Shown: positions 4,366-62,481 of the stretch, in pieces
How positions within the stretch are numbered: position 1 is the stretch's first letter
How the letters are laid out: each line of letters starts with the position of its first letter
Source: Synergistaceae bacterium
GTDB lineage: Bacteria; Synergistota; Synergistia; Synergistales; Aminobacteriaceae
Assembly (NCBI GenBank): GCA_031277095.1
Contig: JAISLU010000079.1
Location: forward strand, 1-62,481
Length of the DNA stretch: 62,481 nt
Reading direction: 5' to 3'
Notes under the pieces: model-generated
What the model saw: the letters and a program-made list of their open reading frames with translations, nothing else
Told to the model about the DNA's origin: nothing
Database searches by the model: none
Position numbers and translations under genes: made by a program

Positions 4366-4962
4366 TCAAACCCGGCTCTCTCTCCCCTGGGAGAGACGCT
4401 CGATGTTCGAGCCGTGTCGGTAAAGCGAGGAAACGGCCAGAACCAGGGAGACCAGAATGAAGGAGAAAGGCGCGTCGAGCATCCAGAAAAACACGGGCAA
4501 AGCCAACAGTGAGGACATCGAAGCGAGGGAAACATAGCGCGTGGTCGTCATGACGGCGTACCAGATCGCTCCGCTCAAGAGGGCGACGGCGAAAGACTCG
4601 TAGGGCCACAGGAAAAACACCACTCCGTAGGTGGTCGCCACGCCTTTGCCGCCTCTGAACTTCAGCCAGACAGGGTAGTTGTGCCCCATGACAACGGCGA
4701 ACCCCACCAGAGACAGCAGCCAAGGCGCCGTACTCGCCGATGTCGCCGTGACGAGAAGGGCCAGGGCACCCTTCAGCATATCGACGATGGATACGAAAAC
4801 GGCCCATCCCTGCCCCATGACGCGCCGAACGTTTGTCGCCCCGATGCTGCCGGAACCGACGGCACGGATGTCCACGCCCTTCACCAGGCGAGCCGCGAGA
4901 TATCCGGTGGGGATGGAGCCGATAAAGTAAGAAATGACCATCCAGAGTATTGCGCTTCTCAT
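4366..4962 (-). CDS. plsY: Glycerol-3-phosphate acyltransferase PlsY
   Basis: Integral membrane enzyme that transfers an acyl group from acyl-phosphate to glycerol-3-phosphate, the first step of phospholipid synthesis. It shows the three PlsY motifs: GSIPTGYLAAR, the glycine-rich GSGSIGATNVRRVMG, and GHNYPVWLKFRGGKGVATT, with about five membrane segments. ATG at 4962 is chosen over the ATG at 4968 because the strong AAGGAGGG lies 8 bases from the former and only 2 from the latter. The resulting 198 residues match the family's usual 190-210. The QueG-like gene follows after 29 bases. Confidence 0.93.
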   Translation of the reverse strand: MRSAILWMVISYFIGSIPTGYLAARLVKGVDIRAVGSGSIGATNVRRVMGQGWAVFVSIVDMLKGALALLVTATSASTAPWLLSLVGFAVVMGHNYPVWLKFRGGKGVATTYGVVFFLWPYESFAVALLSGAIWYAVMTTTRYVSLASMSSLLALPVFFWMLDAPFSFILVSLVLAVSSLYRHGSNIERLSQGRESRV

Positions 4963-5100
4963 AAACATATCCCTCCTTAGATGGTGATACTGACATTTTA
5001 CTATAACAAAACGCGAAAAAAGGAGGACAAAAGCCCTCCTCACGTTTATGACATTTTCACGATCTCACGACTCAAGCCGACTCTCGAATCAACGCTAGTT

Positions 5101-6216
5101 TCAACTTTCGATACCGCTGATACGGTCGGAGCCGCGCTTGATATCAAGCTGCACCAGGTCTTTTCCCTTCAAAACGTCCCACTTCAGGTTCAGCACCAAA
5201 AGGAACAGCGCGGAAAAAGCATCCACCCGCCACGCGCTGCTTTCTTTCTCGAAAGCCCCGTGGATCGCCCGCAGCTGTAAAAGCGCCCGGTCATCTTCGT
5301 CCAGCTCGGCCAGAAATTTTTCCACCTCGGAGATGGTGTCGATGCCCGCCGCCCGAAAAGCTTTATACAAAAATTGGAAACTTTCCTTGAGATAGTTGGG
5401 CGATGGCACAAAAATCGGGAACCCTGCCTTGATGGCCATGGAACTCCATTTGTTGAGGGTCTCGTCCACCACGTCGCCTTTGCTGAAAAAGTCGTAAAGC
5501 TCCTCTTCCGTATAAGTACGCTCCGCGGAAACCGAGACGTCGCCTCTCGTTTCGGGCTCCGGCACCGGCGGGACCAGGACTGCCACGTCTTTTACCTCTT
5601 CCCAGAGAGAGAGAAATCCTTCGTCGGCCTCCTCCAGAAGGGCAGCCAGGCGAACCAGCTTCCGCTTGAGCTTTTTTTCGGACACGGAGTCCACGTTCAT
5701 GTTGACCCGGGGAGAAATCGTCGCCCACGCCTCCTGAAGCACCGTGCGAAGCTCCAGTCGGAAAGAAAGCCCCCGGTATTTGCGCCACTCCCGGAGGGAA
5801 GAACGGCTCTCCGAAAGAGCCAAGGTATAGAGTACGGCAGGATAGCCGAAGCGGAAGGGGTCTTCCAGGCCGCTGGAGGGGATGGAATGATCGAGATCCA
5901 CGTTGAACTCCGAACAAACGATATCTTCTACTTTATAGACGTCCTCGGGAAAACGCAGCAACACCCGCACCGTCACCAAGTCCGAAATTGAATCCAACCC
6001 TGACGAATCGTTTCCCTCGTAGTGAGCGTTCAAAGATTTCACAAGCTCGGCCGGGGCCTTGGCCCAGCCGTCGATGCTGCAAATTTCGATATCTTCCCGC
6101 TCCACCAGATCTTGAACCAAGTTGCGAATGCGTGAAGAATACTCTTCGTAAAGCGAGAGTTTTTCTACATAGCTGATGCCCAATTCATCGATACGATGCC
6201 TATCCAACGCTATCAC
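5101..6216 (-). CDS. Divergent RelA/SpoT-domain protein (small alarmone synthetase-like)
   Basis: A 371-residue soluble protein. Residues about 25-215 follow the layout of a (p)ppGpp synthetase domain: a helix, IDGWAKAP in place of the TGR-K motif, then ISDLVTVRVLLRFPEDVYKV, RFGYPAVLYTLAL, LSFRLELRTVLQEAWATI and the helical tail. The acidic positions matching the catalytic Asp (D79) and Glu (E155) are kept. The substrate-contacting Arg/Lys/His positions are changed, for example GYRS-H to GYPA-Y and EIQIRT to RLELRT. Residues about 230-371 are an unassigned helical domain with an acidic middle. No hydrolase domain is present. The start is GTG at 6216; no better-placed ATG exists. The product could be inactive, regulatory, or use another substrate. 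It is not linked to an obvious partner. Confidence 0.55.
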   Translation of the reverse strand: MIALDRHRIDELGISYVEKLSLYEEYSSRIRNLVQDLVEREDIEICSIDGWAKAPAELVKSLNAHYEGNDSSGLDSISDLVTVRVLLRFPEDVYKVEDIVCSEFNVDLDHSIPSSGLEDPFRFGYPAVLYTLALSESRSSLREWRKYRGLSFRLELRTVLQEAWATISPRVNMNVDSVSEKKLKRKLVRLAALLEEADEGFLSLWEEVKDVAVLVPPVPEPETRGDVSVSAERTYTEEELYDFFSKGDVVDETLNKWSSMAIKAGFPIFVPSPNYLKESFQFLYKAFRAAGIDTISEVEKFLAELDEDDRALLQLRAIHGAFEKESSAWRVDAFSALFLLVLNLKWDVLKGKDLVQLDIKRGSDRISGIES

Positions 6217-6377
6217 CGCCTAAAGGGTCGAGTGCATGACTAAAAGTCCACATCTAATAGGCAGTATAGCGCATGAAACGCAACTTGAACAGGGGCAGGA
6301 GGTTTTCACGGATGGTTTCTGCGCCTCGAATCGCCCCTCGAATGCGCCGAACGTCGAAACGAAGCTCCCTGACCTTC

Positions 6378-6406: not shown

Positions 6407-9085
6407 TTAAAGATCGAGTTCTCCGAAAAATTGCGCGTCCGCCAACAAATTTTCGGCTTCTTCCTGGGGGAGAGGGCAGGCGAAAAAATATCCCTGGCCC
6501 TTGGTCGCGTTGTTCTCCGTCAGCCAGTTGACTTGGTCCTGATTTTCCACTCCCTCGGCCACGATTTCGAAATTGAGGTCGTGAGCCATGTTTATGATGG
6601 AACGGACCATGAGCGAAGTTTTTTCGGACAGGAAAAGTTGGTCGATAAAAGATTTATCTATTTTTATATAGTTGATGGGGAGCTGGTTTATATATTGCAG
6701 CGAAGAATACCCCGTCCCGAAGTCGTCCAGAGCGATCCTCACGCCGAACTCCCTCAGCATGTTCAATTTTTTGTTGGTGACCTCCAAGTTCTCGATGAAA
6801 ATACCCTCCGTGACCTCCAAAACGAAGTAACGGGGGTCCAAGGCCTCCTCCTGAATACAGTCGCAGATGGAGGACAGGAAGGCGGGATTCAGGAACGACG
6901 CCCCCGAGGCGTTGGCGCTGAGGAAAAAGGGTACTTTGGGATAGGCGGCGGACCATTTTTTAGCGACGGAGATCGTCTGCTGGATGATACATTTGTCGAT
7001 GTTAGTGATGAACCCCGTCTCTTCCGCCTGAGGGATGAAAACCCCAGGAGTCAGAAGGCCATGCTGAGGGTGATGCCAGCGGACCAGGGCCTCGAAGCCG
7101 GACAGGCGGGCCGGCGACAACTGATATATGGGCTGGAAGTAAGGAATGAACTCCGATGCCGAAAGCCCCTGCTGCATACTTGCCTGAAAGGAGAGCAAGT
7201 TGAACCGGCGGTGCTTGCTCTCTTCCGCCCCTTCCTCCATGGTCAGGAAGGTAATGGTGCCGATGCCTCGTTTTTTTCCGGCGATCAGGGCGTCGGTGCC
7301 CAGGGACAAAATCTGGGAGGAGGTGGTGGAAGTCTGGATATCGAGTACCACGCCGCAGCTGGCGCTGGGGAATACCGTTTTCCCGTCCACCGAGATGGGG
7401 ACGTTAAGGAGGCGCTGAATGCGTTGGAGAAGGGACCGCACGTACTCCTTGGAGTTCGTGCCGCGAATGATGACCCCGAACTCGTCTCCGCTCAGGCGGA
7501 AGGCCGAGGCAAAGCCCATGATGATACCATTGATCCTCTCCGCGACTTGGACGATCACCTGATCTGCGCCTCGCGGCCCCAATTGTTCGTTGACCAGTTT
7601 GAACTTGTCCATGTTGATGAAAGCGACGCAAAAGGAATAGTATGCTATCGTACCCATGTTCCGCAGTTCTTTTTCCAGTTCGTCCAAGAAGTAATGCCTG
7701 TTGGGCAGACCCGTTTGCGCGTCGTAGAAAGCCATTTGGACGAGGCGCGCCTCCATGATCTTGCGTTCGGTGAGGTCCCGGGCGATGGAAAGGGTGTAGG
7801 AACTGCGGCCGAAGATCAGGGTCTCCTGGTGAATCTCCACGGGAAGGAGTTTGCCGTCCTGGCGGCGCAGGGTGGCCTCGAACACGTCGGCCTCGTTTTT
7901 CAGCAAATTTTCGCCCGGCCCGCTGCTTTTCTCCTTTTCGACGACGATGGAGTCGAAGGAGAGCGCCGTCAGGTCCGTCGTTTCCGGATAGTCCAGAAGC
8001 TGGCGGGTGGAGGCGTTGGCCAGGAGTATCTTGCCGTCGGGCCCGCAGAGAATCAACGGGTCCGGCACGTTGGAAATCAGCTCTTCCAACGCCTTGAGCA
8101 TGGTGTTGAAGGACCGGGAAAGGTGGGTGATCTCGTCGTTGCCCTCCAGGGGAATCCGAAGGTGGACCTGCCACTGGGAGGAGATGTCGTCCGCGATTTT
8201 TTGCACTTTCTTCAGACGGGACAGAACCAGTTTGTCGAAAATGACGAAGACCAGCATCAAGATCAAGGTACTGAGCAAGACGAGCCAGGCATAGCGGTTT
8301 CCCAGAGTTTTGACGACCTCTCCGTAAAGGACCCTTCGGGTGGTGCTGCGGATAAAAAGTCTGTTCGGCTGTCCGAGGATGCCCGTAAACGTGTAATAGA
8401 TGACGGCCTCTTTATCGGAAAGCAGCACGTCGACGCGATCGCCGTTTTCCGTGATCTGCGCGAATTCCGGGGCCGTAAGAACGTTGGGGGTTTTTTCCAG
8501 GTCCAGCAACTGGAAATCCTCTTCCAAAATGCGAAACACGGAGGCGAGAAACTCTTCCAGGGTTTCCCCCACCACCACCGCAGCCTGAACGCCGTGAAGC
8601 TCGTCCATTACGGGAGCGATGCCCACGATGAAGTTCTCCCTGCCGATTTTGAGCAGTCCGCTTATGGGTGCAAGAGAAGATTTTTCGCTGTAAAGCTGCC
8701 GCACGGCTTGCGTGAGATTTTGGGAAAACGAGGGTGAAAGATCGATGCTACGCCCCTCTCCGTCTCTTTGGTATCCCTCCGCCGTGCCCGAGGAGAAGTC
8801 GCACAGGGCCACCGTCTGCAGCGGAAGAATGTGCAGCTGTTCGGCGGAAAAAAAGTCTCCCTCGGACACCCGTTCATGTGCCGCGAGAGGGATTGCCTGA
8901 CGCAGCAGGGTTTCCTGCTTCGTTTGCAAATGATCGTCGAGTCTTTGCATATCCCGTTCGAAAATATGCTTTTCGGCGGCTTCGAAGCTCAAAAGAATTG
9001 ACTGGCCGCTGCTGAAAGCCATTAAAATCGACAAAGCGATAAGCAGTCCCGACACGGGATATAAAAATTTCTTGAGTAAAGACAT
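6407..9085 (-). CDS. Membrane c-di-GMP protein: CHASE4-like sensor, HAMP, PAS, GGDEF, EAL
   Basis: An 892-residue inner-membrane signalling protein. A first membrane segment (about 8-28) and a second (about 268-288) enclose a periplasmic sensor resembling CHASE4. HAMP, a PAS domain (NVPDPLILCGPDGKILLANA), GGDEF and EAL follow. The GGDEF signature is RLSGDEFG, with the first Gly replaced by Ser and no RxxD inhibitory site before it. The EAL half is complete: FEALVRW, LEVTEG, DDFGTGYSSL, KIDKSF and AEGVEN. I infer that it mainly hydrolyses c-di-GMP, with the GGDEF half weak or regulatory. ATG at 9085 is chosen: GAGGAA lies 5 bases from the upstream TTG and 8 from this ATG. A GAF-like sensor gene lies 167 bases upstream on the same strand. 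Confidence 0.93.
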   Translation of the reverse strand: MSLLKKFLYPVSGLLIALSILMAFSSGQSILLSFEAAEKHIFERDMQRLDDHLQTKQETLLRQAIPLAAHERVSEGDFFSAEQLHILPLQTVALCDFSSGTAEGYQRDGEGRSIDLSPSFSQNLTQAVRQLYSEKSSLAPISGLLKIGRENFIVGIAPVMDELHGVQAAVVVGETLEEFLASVFRILEEDFQLLDLEKTPNVLTAPEFAQITENGDRVDVLLSDKEAVIYYTFTGILGQPNRLFIRSTTRRVLYGEVVKTLGNRYAWLVLLSTLILMLVFVIFDKLVLSRLKKVQKIADDISSQWQVHLRIPLEGNDEITHLSRSFNTMLKALEELISNVPDPLILCGPDGKILLANASTRQLLDYPETTDLTALSFDSIVVEKEKSSGPGENLLKNEADVFEATLRRQDGKLLPVEIHQETLIFGRSSYTLSIARDLTERKIMEARLVQMAFYDAQTGLPNRHYFLDELEKELRNMGTIAYYSFCVAFINMDKFKLVNEQLGPRGADQVIVQVAERINGIIMGFASAFRLSGDEFGVIIRGTNSKEYVRSLLQRIQRLLNVPISVDGKTVFPSASCGVVLDIQTSTTSSQILSLGTDALIAGKKRGIGTITFLTMEEGAEESKHRRFNLLSFQASMQQGLSASEFIPYFQPIYQLSPARLSGFEALVRWHHPQHGLLTPGVFIPQAEETGFITNIDKCIIQQTISVAKKWSAAYPKVPFFLSANASGASFLNPAFLSSICDCIQEEALDPRYFVLEVTEGIFIENLEVTNKKLNMLREFGVRIALDDFGTGYSSLQYINQLPINYIKIDKSFIDQLFLSEKTSLMVRSIINMAHDLNFEIVAEGVENQDQVNWLTENNATKGQGYFFACPLPQEEAENLLADAQFFGELDL

Positions 9086-9252
9086 CAAGATTCCTCACAT
9101 CTCACCAATGATCGACGACAAGCGTCGTTTAGAAACGTGCGTTATTCGTACATCTCCAAATTATTTGTAAACCGCGAGCGCCGTTATTCACGAAATTCAT
9201 TATTCGCATTTATTCTCCGTAATTATCATTTTATATTATTTCATATTCCATA

Positions 9253-12410: not shown

Positions 12411-14579
12411 TCAGTCCTTGAATAAAGGCGTCAGAATTTTGATCACTTGGGCTCCCAGCTCCAGCCGCGCCTCCGGGGACAGGGGGGCCGAGTCGGCGGA
12501 AGGAGGTCGCTCTATAGCGAGGGAGCCGCAAATCGCCGCGATCACGTTCGAAGGGTTCTCCGCCTGGGCGTTTCCCCTGGACGTCAGAAAATCCGTCAGA
12601 AAATCCCGCACGGTGGACCGCTGTTCTCGCTGCAGCCAGAACTGCAGACACTCTCCGATATTGTCCGGGCCGCCGCCCGAAGAGGCCGGTGAGGAGGCCG
12701 TCAAAAAAACGGAGGAGAGGGCGTCGAGCCTTACATGATCGTCGGAGGTGAGAGAGAAATAGTCGTCCAGACGTGCCGCCAGGGCCTTCAGCTTGTCCGT
12801 TCCCTCCGGCCCGGAAAGGCCCGTCAGGGCGCAGACGTATTCCAAAAGGAGCGCCGCGGCGTTGTAATCCTGGGACGGGCGCAAACCCGAGGGGAATGGG
12901 GCCAGCACGATAGGGTCGTCCCAGTGGTATTCCTTCCCGGCGATACCCAGATCCGGCAAGATCAAAAAACCCTCCACCCTGGCGGTATCGGCGATTTTTT
13001 TGCGGTCCGAGGCGCCGGGCTTTTGCCTGTTTTTCTCCCCTTCCTGCCCGCCTTGGGAACTTCCGGAGTGGTCGATACGCATCAGATCCGCCACGGCCGC
13101 CAGGTTCGAGGTGAGGGGCGCGGTGACCTCCACGGTTTCCAACGAGTCCTCCGCCTCGGGCAACCCCTGCAGCCGCCGGATGAACGAATCCCAGTCCGGG
13201 CGGTCCCCCAATTTCTCCAACTCCTCCGCCGCGCTGGAGGGCTCGGGGCCGCTGGACGGAGGGGCGACGTTTTTGAGAAATTCTTTCCATACAGCGAGGA
13301 GGGGCGCGAAATCTGTAAGATCTTTGAAAAAATCGGGAAGCTCCAAAACCCCGCCCGTTATGTTTTTATCCCCCGCAAGGGTGGGGTTGGTGGGAACATA
13401 GGCCATGAAAAGGGAGCTTTTGGGCCTGGGCAGCACCAGCCCTCCCGAACATTTGGCTTTGTACTTGGACGCGAACTGCGCCACCAGGTCGTCGGTATGG
13501 GGTATGGGCTTTTTCTCCGTCTCCTCGGCGAGAGAAGAGGTGCGCATGAGGGTGAAGGCCACCGCCGAGGGAAGAGGCAGCCTCGCGTCGGCATAAGGCC
13601 GCAGCAACATGTTGAGAATTTCCGTGGGCACGGCGGAGAGGGCGCGGCTGAAGGCCATAAGCTGTTCCTCGGGCAGCCACGCCTTGGCCGCCATCCAAGT
13701 GATGAATTTGATCAGGCCCTGCCGCAGGGATTCCCACCGGATCAGGGGCAGCAGCCGAAAGGCCTCGCCGATGCAGACGGCGATATCCAGCCGGTCGGAC
13801 AGGACGCGCCGCTCCAGGCCGAACAGCCAGAGGATCGGATAGCATATGTGGGACGGAGGCTGAATGCGCCCCCCCGCCAGCCAAAGGAGATAAACGCCTC
13901 TCTGCAGCGGGGTCATTTCCCGGTAAGACGTGGCTCCCTCGCTGGGAAGCTCGGATTCTCCGCCGGGATATTCCACGGGGAGCGTGATGTCGATACAGGA
14001 GGGCTCCGGGGTGCTGCTGGGGCCGTCGGACCAGTACGTCAACGGCCCGCGGATGGTCAGGTCCCCGATTTGGATACTGCCCATCTTACCGCTCCAGCGA
14101 AGCAGCGTCGACTCGGCCTTCGGTTTTGCCTCCTCCGTATTGCCGTAGGCATAAGGAGAATCGCCCAGGCTCGGCGGCGCGACGGAGGAGTAGGTGGCGC
14201 TGGTCAGGGCGTTGGGAGAACTGATGGGCGCGGCCGCCAGCAGGGGCTTTAGAGGAACGATTTCCTCTTCCAATCCGAAAGACGGCCCGGACGGACCTAA
14301 ATCCGGTTCCGCCACGGGCGCCGGTTCTGCCGGAACCGTTGGAGATGTCGTGGTCTGCTCTTTTTCGGGAGGGCGCGACAAAGTGAGGGAATCGGAAATT
14401 TCCTCCTCCGCTTTTGGGGCGGGTTCCTGAGGGCGCGTCTCGACGGCCCCGGTTTCTTCGGGCTTGGTTTCCTCGCCTCGTTTTTCCCCATGCAACCCCG
14501 CCCAATGCCGAGAGCGTTGCGTGATGATGGCGCTCACGCCGACCACAACGAGCATGATCCCGATCACTAAGTAAAACAA
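12411..14579 (-). CDS. Membrane-anchored TerB N-terminal domain protein
   Basis: A 722-residue protein with one N-terminal membrane segment (FYLVIGIMLVVVGVSAII), a 130-residue Pro/Glu-rich linker, then a TerB_N domain from about residue 165 (IQIGDLTIRGPLTYW, LQRGVYLLWLAGGR, ILWLFGLERRVL). The C-terminal half is helical and probably contains the degenerate TerB_C region. TerB_N proteins are poorly understood and are grouped with tellurite-resistance and bacterial stress or defence modules. The start is TTG at 14579: GGAGGG lies six bases upstream and the membrane helix then starts the protein. Longer upstream frames have no ribosome site. A TATAAT lies at 14610-14615 on this strand, without a good -35. 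No TerD/TerC genes are adjacent. Confidence 0.7.
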   Translation of the reverse strand: MFYLVIGIMLVVVGVSAIITQRSRHWAGLHGEKRGEETKPEETGAVETRPQEPAPKAEEEISDSLTLSRPPEKEQTTTSPTVPAEPAPVAEPDLGPSGPSFGLEEEIVPLKPLLAAAPISSPNALTSATYSSVAPPSLGDSPYAYGNTEEAKPKAESTLLRWSGKMGSIQIGDLTIRGPLTYWSDGPSSTPEPSCIDITLPVEYPGGESELPSEGATSYREMTPLQRGVYLLWLAGGRIQPPSHICYPILWLFGLERRVLSDRLDIAVCIGEAFRLLPLIRWESLRQGLIKFITWMAAKAWLPEEQLMAFSRALSAVPTEILNMLLRPYADARLPLPSAVAFTLMRTSSLAEETEKKPIPHTDDLVAQFASKYKAKCSGGLVLPRPKSSLFMAYVPTNPTLAGDKNITGGVLELPDFFKDLTDFAPLLAVWKEFLKNVAPPSSGPEPSSAAEELEKLGDRPDWDSFIRRLQGLPEAEDSLETVEVTAPLTSNLAAVADLMRIDHSGSSQGGQEGEKNRQKPGASDRKKIADTARVEGFLILPDLGIAGKEYHWDDPIVLAPFPSGLRPSQDYNAAALLLEYVCALTGLSGPEGTDKLKALAARLDDYFSLTSDDHVRLDALSSVFLTASSPASSGGGPDNIGECLQFWLQREQRSTVRDFLTDFLTSRGNAQAENPSNVIAAICGSLAIERPPSADSAPLSPEARLELGAQVIKILTPLFKD

Positions 14580-14727
14580 GCCTCGCCCTCCAGTCGGAAA
14601 AGTACCGTCATTATAGTACGTTCTTACGCCTTCCGCACACTTTGAACCCCTCCCGGCAATAGTCAAAAACGCTATAATACCCGTCGAAGAAGGCGAGCGA
14701 AATAAGGCAAGCGAGGGGGGGAAAATC

Positions 14728-14943
14728 TTGACGTGTTTGGCGACGTTCAAGACGACCAGCATGGCGCTCTTGTTCGAGCGGGCGTGCCGGAAGGAGGGGA
14801 TAAAGGCGTCCGTGGTTCCCGTTCCCCGGAAACTTTCGTCGAGCTGCGGCCTGGCCTGCGACTTTCCCTGCGAAAGCCGCCCCGAGGTCGAGGCCGTCGT
14901 GGAACAAAACAAAATCGAAGTCGCCGGCTATCACGAAATGTAG
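14728..14943 (+). CDS. DUF3343 family protein (putative Se/S carrier-like)
   Basis: A 71-residue cytosolic protein matching DUF3343: KTTSMALLFERACRKEGI, then the signature VPRKLSSSCGLACDF with a conserved cysteine, ending IEVAGYHEM. Family members resemble the C-terminal part of YedF and are thought to carry selenium or sulfur on the SSCG cysteine. The start is TTG at 14728 with an AGGGGGG seven bases before; the length is typical (70-90). It is divergent from the TerB_N gene and stands alone, without selenophosphate synthetase or TusA-like genes beside it. Confidence 0.75.
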   Translation: MTCLATFKTTSMALLFERACRKEGIKASVVPVPRKLSSSCGLACDFPCESRPEVEAVVEQNKIEVAGYHEM

Positions 14944-62333: not shown

Positions 62334-62409
62334 GAGCCGTTAGCTCAGCCGGTAGAGCACCGGACTTTTAATCCGGGTGTCGAGGGTTCAAGTCCCTCAC
62401 GGCTCACCA
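62334..62409 (+). tRNA. tRNA-Lys (UUU)
   Basis: A 76-base cloverleaf. The acceptor stem is GAGCCGT/ACGGCTC, the D-arm starts GCTCAGCCGGTAGAGC, the anticodon loop CTTTTAA carries TTT, the T-arm is GAGGGTTCAAGTCCCTC, and the 3' ACCA is encoded. It decodes AAA/AAG and is the substrate of the lysS product. Confidence 0.97.
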
Positions 62410-62425: not shown

Positions 62426-62481
62426 GGTCCCATCGTCCAGGGGCCTAGGACACAGCCCTTTCAAGGCTGCGACGCGGGTTC
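62426..62481 (+). tRNA. tRNA-Glu (UUC), cut by the window end
   Basis: GGTCCCATCGTCCAGGGGCC starts the tRNA, and the anticodon loop CTTTCAA carries TTC in the stem GCAGCCC/GGCTGC. The T-arm is cut after GCGGGTTC. It lies 16 bases after tRNA-Lys, so the two are probably co-transcribed. Confidence 0.92.

Follow-up and report, generated by a model that had tools for sequence, protein, structure and literature searches.

A conserved RelA/SpoT-like pseudo-synthetase of Synergistota, probably kept as a non-catalytic binding protein

The window, i.e., the whole 62,481-nucleotide stretch of Synergistaceae DNA that was analysed, carries a single minus-strand open frame at 5101–6216, of 371 codons when counted from the GTG at 6216. 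The frame, described in an earlier sequence-only reading, is real, but its GTG is a less likely start than the TTG at 6207, because AGGCGGTGAT fits a Shine-Dalgarno sequence for the latter and the corresponding codon in relatives is ATG or TTG; the protein would then be 368 aa long. G-rich runs like AGGCGGTGAT precede the start in several relatives and are absent from the g15 rows shown. Residues are numbered throughout from the GTG at 6216 (371-aa form). The features of the locus are as follows:

4366..4962, minus strand, plsY, with ATG at 4962 (PF02660, E 3.3e-51)
5016..5039, minus strand, intrinsic-terminator-like hairpin with a U6 tail, between the pseudo-synthetase gene and plsY
5101..6207, minus strand, coding sequence of the putative pseudo-synthetase, 368 aa from TTG, 371 aa if GTG 6216 is used
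5104..5544, minus strand, C-terminal all-helical domain (modelled), residues 225–371, with the conserved stretch WRVDAFSALFLLVLNLKWDVL..SDRI
5572..6099, minus strand, SYNTH-like (RelA_SpoT) domain, residues about 40–215, from profile matches
6103..6171, minus strand, N-terminal helix, residues 16–38, from a low-confidence AF2 model
6212..6221, minus strand, AGGCGGTGAT, Shine-Dalgarno-like for the TTG start, overlapping the GTG of the earlier reading

The fold of 4995–5060 (−20.5 kcal/mol, z −4.6) is terminator-like; the hairpin is missing from the output of a simple terminator scan. Given this hairpin and its U6 tail, the pseudo-synthetase gene and plsY may be separate transcripts in this genome. 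Directly upstream (6407–9088, minus strand) lies a gene for a HAMP-PAS-GGDEF-EAL protein, a neighbour not found beside same-genus orthologues within the flanking stretches examined. Elsewhere in the window an 833-codon frame (12411–14912, minus strand) matches TerB_N at E 1.6e-13 and no further Pfam family, and two tRNA matches lie on the plus strand at 62334–62406 and 62426–62481, the second cut by the window end.

Residues 1–215 are homologous to the RelA/SpoT small alarmone synthetases. PF04607 matches all 28 family members scanned from a representative alignment (best E 5.9e-16); the window protein alone gives E 5.8e-4 and 20.6 bits, below the cut-off of 27. The family profile matches the RelQ and RelP structures in the PDB at E 5.6e-10 to 6e-9 and that of CapRel at E 0.0019, and profile–profile comparison with canonical paralogues gives a probability of 99 (E 9e-18). 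By these profile matches the protein belongs to the RelA/SpoT homologue (SYNTH) superfamily, and the small-alarmone-synthetase-like layout read earlier is borne out. Conserved residues of the N-terminal helix are Y16, Y23, R29, L33, and L37. Structure comparison, which the earlier reading had called for, agrees in part: the best eight Foldseek matches of the full-length AF2 model (five sequences) are all RelQ or RelP, but none is at E 0.001 or better, and the model has a mean pLDDT of 46 and was not used for structure claims. In the source genome PF04607 matches two genes, a 782-codon Rel and the present one.

The extra helical domain at the C-terminus, also part of that reading, is confirmed by modelling, as residues 225–371 folded alone give an all-helical model (pLDDT 77, pTM 0.76). 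A Foldseek search of this domain against the PDB returned 26 rows with nothing convincing (best E 3.4), and of 110 PDB chains compared in VIA two had Z of at least 2 (best Z 2.5, 104 residues, rmsd 4.5). Such poor matches of a model do not amount to a new fold. The window protein has no TPR match in Pfam at E up to 1.

With the window protein as query, 61 of 99 relative genomes yielded an orthologue or relative. The profile search gave some match in 86 of the 185 genomes of the phylum Synergistota, a count that takes in G120, where the match is to a canonical synthetase only, G128, which has just one fragment of short length, and three matches that are weak and highly divergent. A single-sequence scan for relatives beyond the phylum returned four loci, all from Synergistaceae, the named records being Synergistaceae MAGs. 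In a plasmid scan, 13 records matched, with the match confined to the SYNTH region and none over 80% of the query, and viral contigs searched with family profiles A2 and A4 contained no confirmed family member. Another RelA/SpoT-domain protein (L134:5175–6224, PF04607 E 2.2e-16) adjoins a type I restriction R subunit.

Our alignment comprises 64 rows, 54 of which were taken as core; the canonical paralogues, the clade L040–L042 with L057, two L045 pieces and L043 were left out of the core. In the tree, family f6 stands beside the canonical proteins with a support of only 82/60 and f7, f8, and f10 have very long branches, so no order of losses is claimed. The degenerate homologues L040 (G018) and L041 (G062) are near-identical and come from genomes of different families, which would fit transfer or a mis-binned contig.

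Twelve active-site positions were scored on every row: the ten ligand residues given in the accessible text of the SaRelP structure paper, including Tyr151 (PMC5794853), the Gln of the ExQ motif as an added site (PMC12691689), and the His of GYxxxH, included on alignment conservation only. The RelQ sequence is consistent with the spacing of the published SaRelP residue numbers. From SaRelP to the window protein the positions read R78 to W51, K80 to K53, S84 to E57, K88 to S61, R91 to A64, D107 to D79, R112 to R84, Y151 to Y125, His to L129, E174 to R153, Gln to E155 and H190 to P169. Six of them are located as follows:

6064..6066, minus strand, W51, where SaRelP has the adenine-stacking Arg (R78), from the 12-site alignment
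5980..5982, minus strand, D79, the kept metal-binding Asp (SaRelP D107), in 53 of 54 orthologues
5842..5844, minus strand, Y125, the kept G-loop Tyr (SaRelP Y151), in 54 of 54 orthologues
5758..5760, minus strand, R153, where SaRelP has the Mg-binding Glu (E174), Glu in 2 of 54
5752..5754, minus strand, E155, in the place of the Gln of ExQ, from the 12-site alignment
5710..5712, minus strand, P169, where SaRelP has the ribose-binding His (H190), His in none of 54 orthologues

The window protein thus keeps four of the twelve sites (K53, D79, R84, and Y125) and three of the nine ATP-Mg residues (Arg, Lys, Ser, Lys, Arg, Asp, Arg, Glu, His), namely K53, D79, and R84. The phosphate-binding Ser, Lys, and Arg are replaced by Glu57, Ser61, and Ala64. 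As far as the alignment tells, the G-loop Tyr expected of an active small alarmone synthetase is in place and the set of ATP-Mg residues is not. That substrate-binding residues are changed had been noticed before, and with six of the ten published RelP ligand residues lost this holds. The catalytic pair thought to be kept, Asp79 and Glu155, survives by half: D79 is conserved, but alignment with the SaRelP residues puts Glu155 at the Gln of ExQ and Arg153 at the Mg-binding Glu, so that Glu155 is not the catalytic Glu. Among the 54 orthologues, position 155 is E in 43, Q in eight, D in two and L in one, and Glu occurs at 153 in just two of the eight rows with Q (L044 and L046).

The 54 core orthologues keep between three and eight of the twelve sites. 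The highest rows, L044 (eight) and L046 (seven), belong to f6 and are the sole two with the Mg-binding Glu. At the other end, the clade L040–L042 with L057 has zero or one site, yet retains the gene and the C-terminal domain. The source genome's own Rel has 11 of the 12 sites, the twelfth being an alignment gap, and three canonical paralogues (L037–L039) have all 12. These paralogues, from the same bacterial family, are two-domain small alarmone synthetases of about 350 aa, with a SYNTH domain (~30% identity to that of the window family) and a further region; unlike the window family they are sporadic, with high-scoring matches in 5 of 185 genomes. Their C-terminal parts are unaligned with those of the window family in the profile comparison; homology of the two C-terminal domains was considered and is unproven, as the profile alignment ends at residue 219. 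Upstream of the three synthetases, which occur sporadically in genus g15, is a conserved frame that looks by sequence reading like a MATE-type transporter:

L037:2376–4124, MATE-type-like frame
L038:1855–3726, MATE-type-like frame
L039:2479–4275, MATE-type-like frame

Because several pairs approach saturation at synonymous sites, only the order of size of the following dN/dS values is safe: 0.037–0.052 for the window gene against L004–L008, 0.12 against L009 and 0.08 against L010. In the four nearest pairs (L004–L007) the SYNTH half has lower values (0.023–0.037) than the C-terminal half (0.054–0.089). On these ratios the gene, whose orthologues are intact, is under strong purifying selection on both domains and not a decaying pseudogene. 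Loss of catalytic residues, fixed across orthologues, is combined with purifying selection, the pattern of a pseudo-SYNTH protein. From the lost sites and the low dN/dS we conclude that this is a conserved Synergistota pseudo-synthetase and no plausible ppGpp, ppApp, or tRNA-modifying enzyme.

Gene neighbours were surveyed at 59 loci from 59 genomes, including one L045 piece and four rows of the degenerate clade; flank lengths are unequal, so absences of neighbours are not firm. Downstream on the same strand, plsY is present in 47 of the 59 loci, in 35 of them with no more than 300 bases between the open frames; it was not found in the flanking stretches examined from f3 and f5. Directly upstream, also on the same strand, 22 of the 59 loci (families f1, f3, f5, and f6) have a gene for a TPR protein, and no upstream TPR gene was seen in the stretches examined from the other 37, the window's own among them. 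The TPR set is a cluster of open frames from the surveyed loci; for one member, L066, a Pfam match confirmed the TPR assignment. Of 23 TPR frames put through a hydropathy scan, 18 showed a candidate membrane segment.

The TPR proteins of f1 and f3 start with a short motif (RKDLEDWLRG, DRNLENWLRG, MDWESWLR, KNLETWIR). A regular expression for this LExWLR-type motif found it in a TPR frame in 17 of 30 distinct loci, and five more carry variants recognized by eye; the 30 loci were brought in by a TPR search and some hold general TPR proteins only. The motif was not seen in the f5 and f6 TPR proteins, despite the presence of the gene pair.

In the window's genus the TPR gene is unlinked: the copy of the source genome (G000:C34:5042–7195) shares 65% identity with the G002 copy, which is situated some 4 kb downstream. 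TPR proteins of this genus that are not directly beside the pseudo-synthetase have a predicted membrane segment and a conserved N-terminal LExWLR-type motif (L137:2726–4771, minus strand; L194:5039–7198, plus strand). At least one genome that is nearly complete, G023, carries the TPR gene, and no pseudo-synthetase was detected there by profile search. A joint loss of both genes in g7 was considered and set aside, since the alignable part of the g7 TPR genes begins only around residue 226, which is no proof of decay.

Four extremely degenerate homologues, from f7, f8, and f10, lie directly before CheB:

L131:5937–6917, degenerate homologue (f7)
L132:5768–6658, degenerate homologue (f10)
L133:5057–5998, degenerate homologue (f8)
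L135:1513–2460, degenerate homologue (f10)

A gene for a methyl-accepting chemotaxis protein is directly upstream of the homologue in L132, L133, and L135; L132 and L133 further have CheC and CheD after CheB. The window protein alone sufficed to find L043, the L135 gene (E 5.4e-11); the homologues of L131, L132, and L133 rest on profile matches (E 1e-6 to 8e-14) and on similarity to L043. Searches with the remnant and A6 profiles found no homologue at 20 further cheB loci from 18 genomes, so within the loci covered the chemotaxis context is limited to f7, f8, and f10.

Since the catalytic residues are lost and the gene is still carefully conserved, the product is probably a binding or scaffold protein. 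The reading we favour, with some confidence, is that of a stand-alone pseudo-synthetase kept as a non-catalytic binding module, an adaptor for which gene order suggests the TPR protein as the likeliest partner. The protein would descend from a two-domain small alarmone synthetase whose SYNTH domain no longer binds ATP-Mg or transfers pyrophosphate; it would do no synthesis and act as an adaptor or regulatory subunit. The conserved N-terminal LExWLR-type motif of the TPR protein could be a docking peptide, and the pseudo-synthetase may help to assemble or switch a TPR membrane complex. Against a TPR partner stand the 37 loci without an upstream TPR gene in the stretches examined, the genome G023, the motif not seen in f5 and f6, and the homologues of f7, f8, and f10, which have chemotaxis neighbours instead. 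The earlier proposal of either a new substrate, perhaps that of a toxin, or a regulatory role fares unevenly: Arg153, Pro169, Glu57, Ser61, and Ala64 speak against the former, and the latter is favoured.

There is precedent for such a loss. In Acinetobacter baumannii SpoT (SpoTAb, Moraxellaceae) an inactive pseudo-SYNTH is described as a regulatory domain that does not bind GDP (PMC9974481), so a SYNTH domain can lose catalysis yet stay as a regulatory part. Both proteins have a SYNTH fold with replaced catalytic and nucleotide residues that is retained without catalysis. In SpoTAb, however, the domain sits within a long RSH hydrolase and has lost Asp and Tyr too, whereas the window protein is separate and small, has its own helical C-terminal domain and keeps both residues. 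Tde-SAS of Treponema denticola (SAS-TPR, DsRel family) couples a SYNTH domain to TPR repeats that act as a brake (PMC10434055), so TPR repeats can govern a SYNTH domain. There the repeats are fused into one active enzyme, while here they belong to a separate protein and the SYNTH domain appears dead. RelP and RelQ, the best-matched solved structures, share the SYNTH domain but are active, keep all ATP and Mg residues and are without such a C-terminal domain.

With K53, D79, R84, and Y125 still in place, the protein might bind nucleotides to some extent. Retention of the G-loop Tyr and D79 makes a guanine-nucleotide or alarmone receptor the strongest rival: the ATP half-site would be lost, and Y125, D79, and R84 would still accept GDP, GTP, or (p)ppGpp supplied by the cell's own Rel, with binding switching the protein. 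The near-invariance of Y125 and D79 although the ATP residues are lost fits this idea, as does the full Rel of the source genome as an alarmone source. It nevertheless seems unlikely to us, as the clade L040–L042 and the homologues of f7, f8, and f10 lack the Tyr and keep the gene, and the closest precedent, the SpoTAb pseudo-SYNTH, does not bind GDP, though its Tyr is also lost (PMC9974481).

More doubtful still is an active transferase with a rearranged site and an altered acceptor or donor, in which E155 together with D79 would take over metal binding from the lost Glu. The position of the lost Glu is just two residues away from E155 and presumably shares its strand; E prevails at position 155, and D79 is nearly invariant. 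Six of the ten RelP ligand residues are gone, however, including the phosphate Ser, Lys, and Arg and the ribose His, and of the eight orthologues with Q at 155 only L044 and L046 have Glu at 153. Moreover, ppApp-making enzymes keep ExQ, as do the altered-acceptor enzymes Apk1 and SaEAS according to the accessible text of PMC12691689, so a changed acceptor does not normally cost the ExQ residues.

A similarly low probability attaches to a role as partner of PlsY, tuning phospholipid synthesis through the acyltransferase encoded downstream. The frequent and often close same-strand linkage of plsY is in its favour, and ppGpp restrains glycerol-3-phosphate acylation in E. coli. On the other hand, the terminator-like hairpin separates the two genes in the window, plsY is missing from the f3 and f5 stretches, and in L066 frames read by eye as ctsR and clpC come after plsY, which may make this a conserved block of unrelated genes.

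The last reading, an antitoxin-free or decayed toxSAS or defence gene, has the fold common to toxSAS (FaRel2, CapRel) and a weak PADLOC match (candidate PDC-S33, E 0.0015) to its credit and was rejected as highly improbable, given the broad spread of orthologues, the conserved neighbours, the strong purifying selection and the dead site. The gene has been passed down within a bacterial family, most of its loci have plsY downstream, and a Pfam scan of six neighbouring reading frames in the window found no antitoxin family. Known toxSAS are toxic active enzymes with an antitoxin part, which seems not to apply here, and the window protein reads RxE where ExQ is expected of toxSAS/CapRel, an expectation taken from Apk1 and SaEAS (PMC12691689) and not from FaRel2 or CapRel.

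Limited searches of open PMC papers gave no report of a stand-alone pseudo-SYNTH family, and the accessible text of an RSH survey names Synergistetes once, under Rel (PMC3153485). Beyond the adaptor reading, we put forward only tentatively that an ancient Synergistota family of stand-alone proteins with the alarmone-synthetase fold gave up enzyme activity and became a docking or receptor subunit of membrane signalling complexes, with the TPR protein or, elsewhere, with a chemotaxis receptor and CheB. If true, a stringent-response fold would be linked to membrane signalling without a nucleotide being made. The label GTP pyrophosphokinase is readily given to such records and would lead models of ppGpp metabolism astray. 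The graded loss of sites, from 8/12 to 0/12 with the gene kept, offers a natural series for the role of the SYNTH fold without catalysis, and if the TPR or chemotaxis link holds, it would provide a small, testable partner pair.
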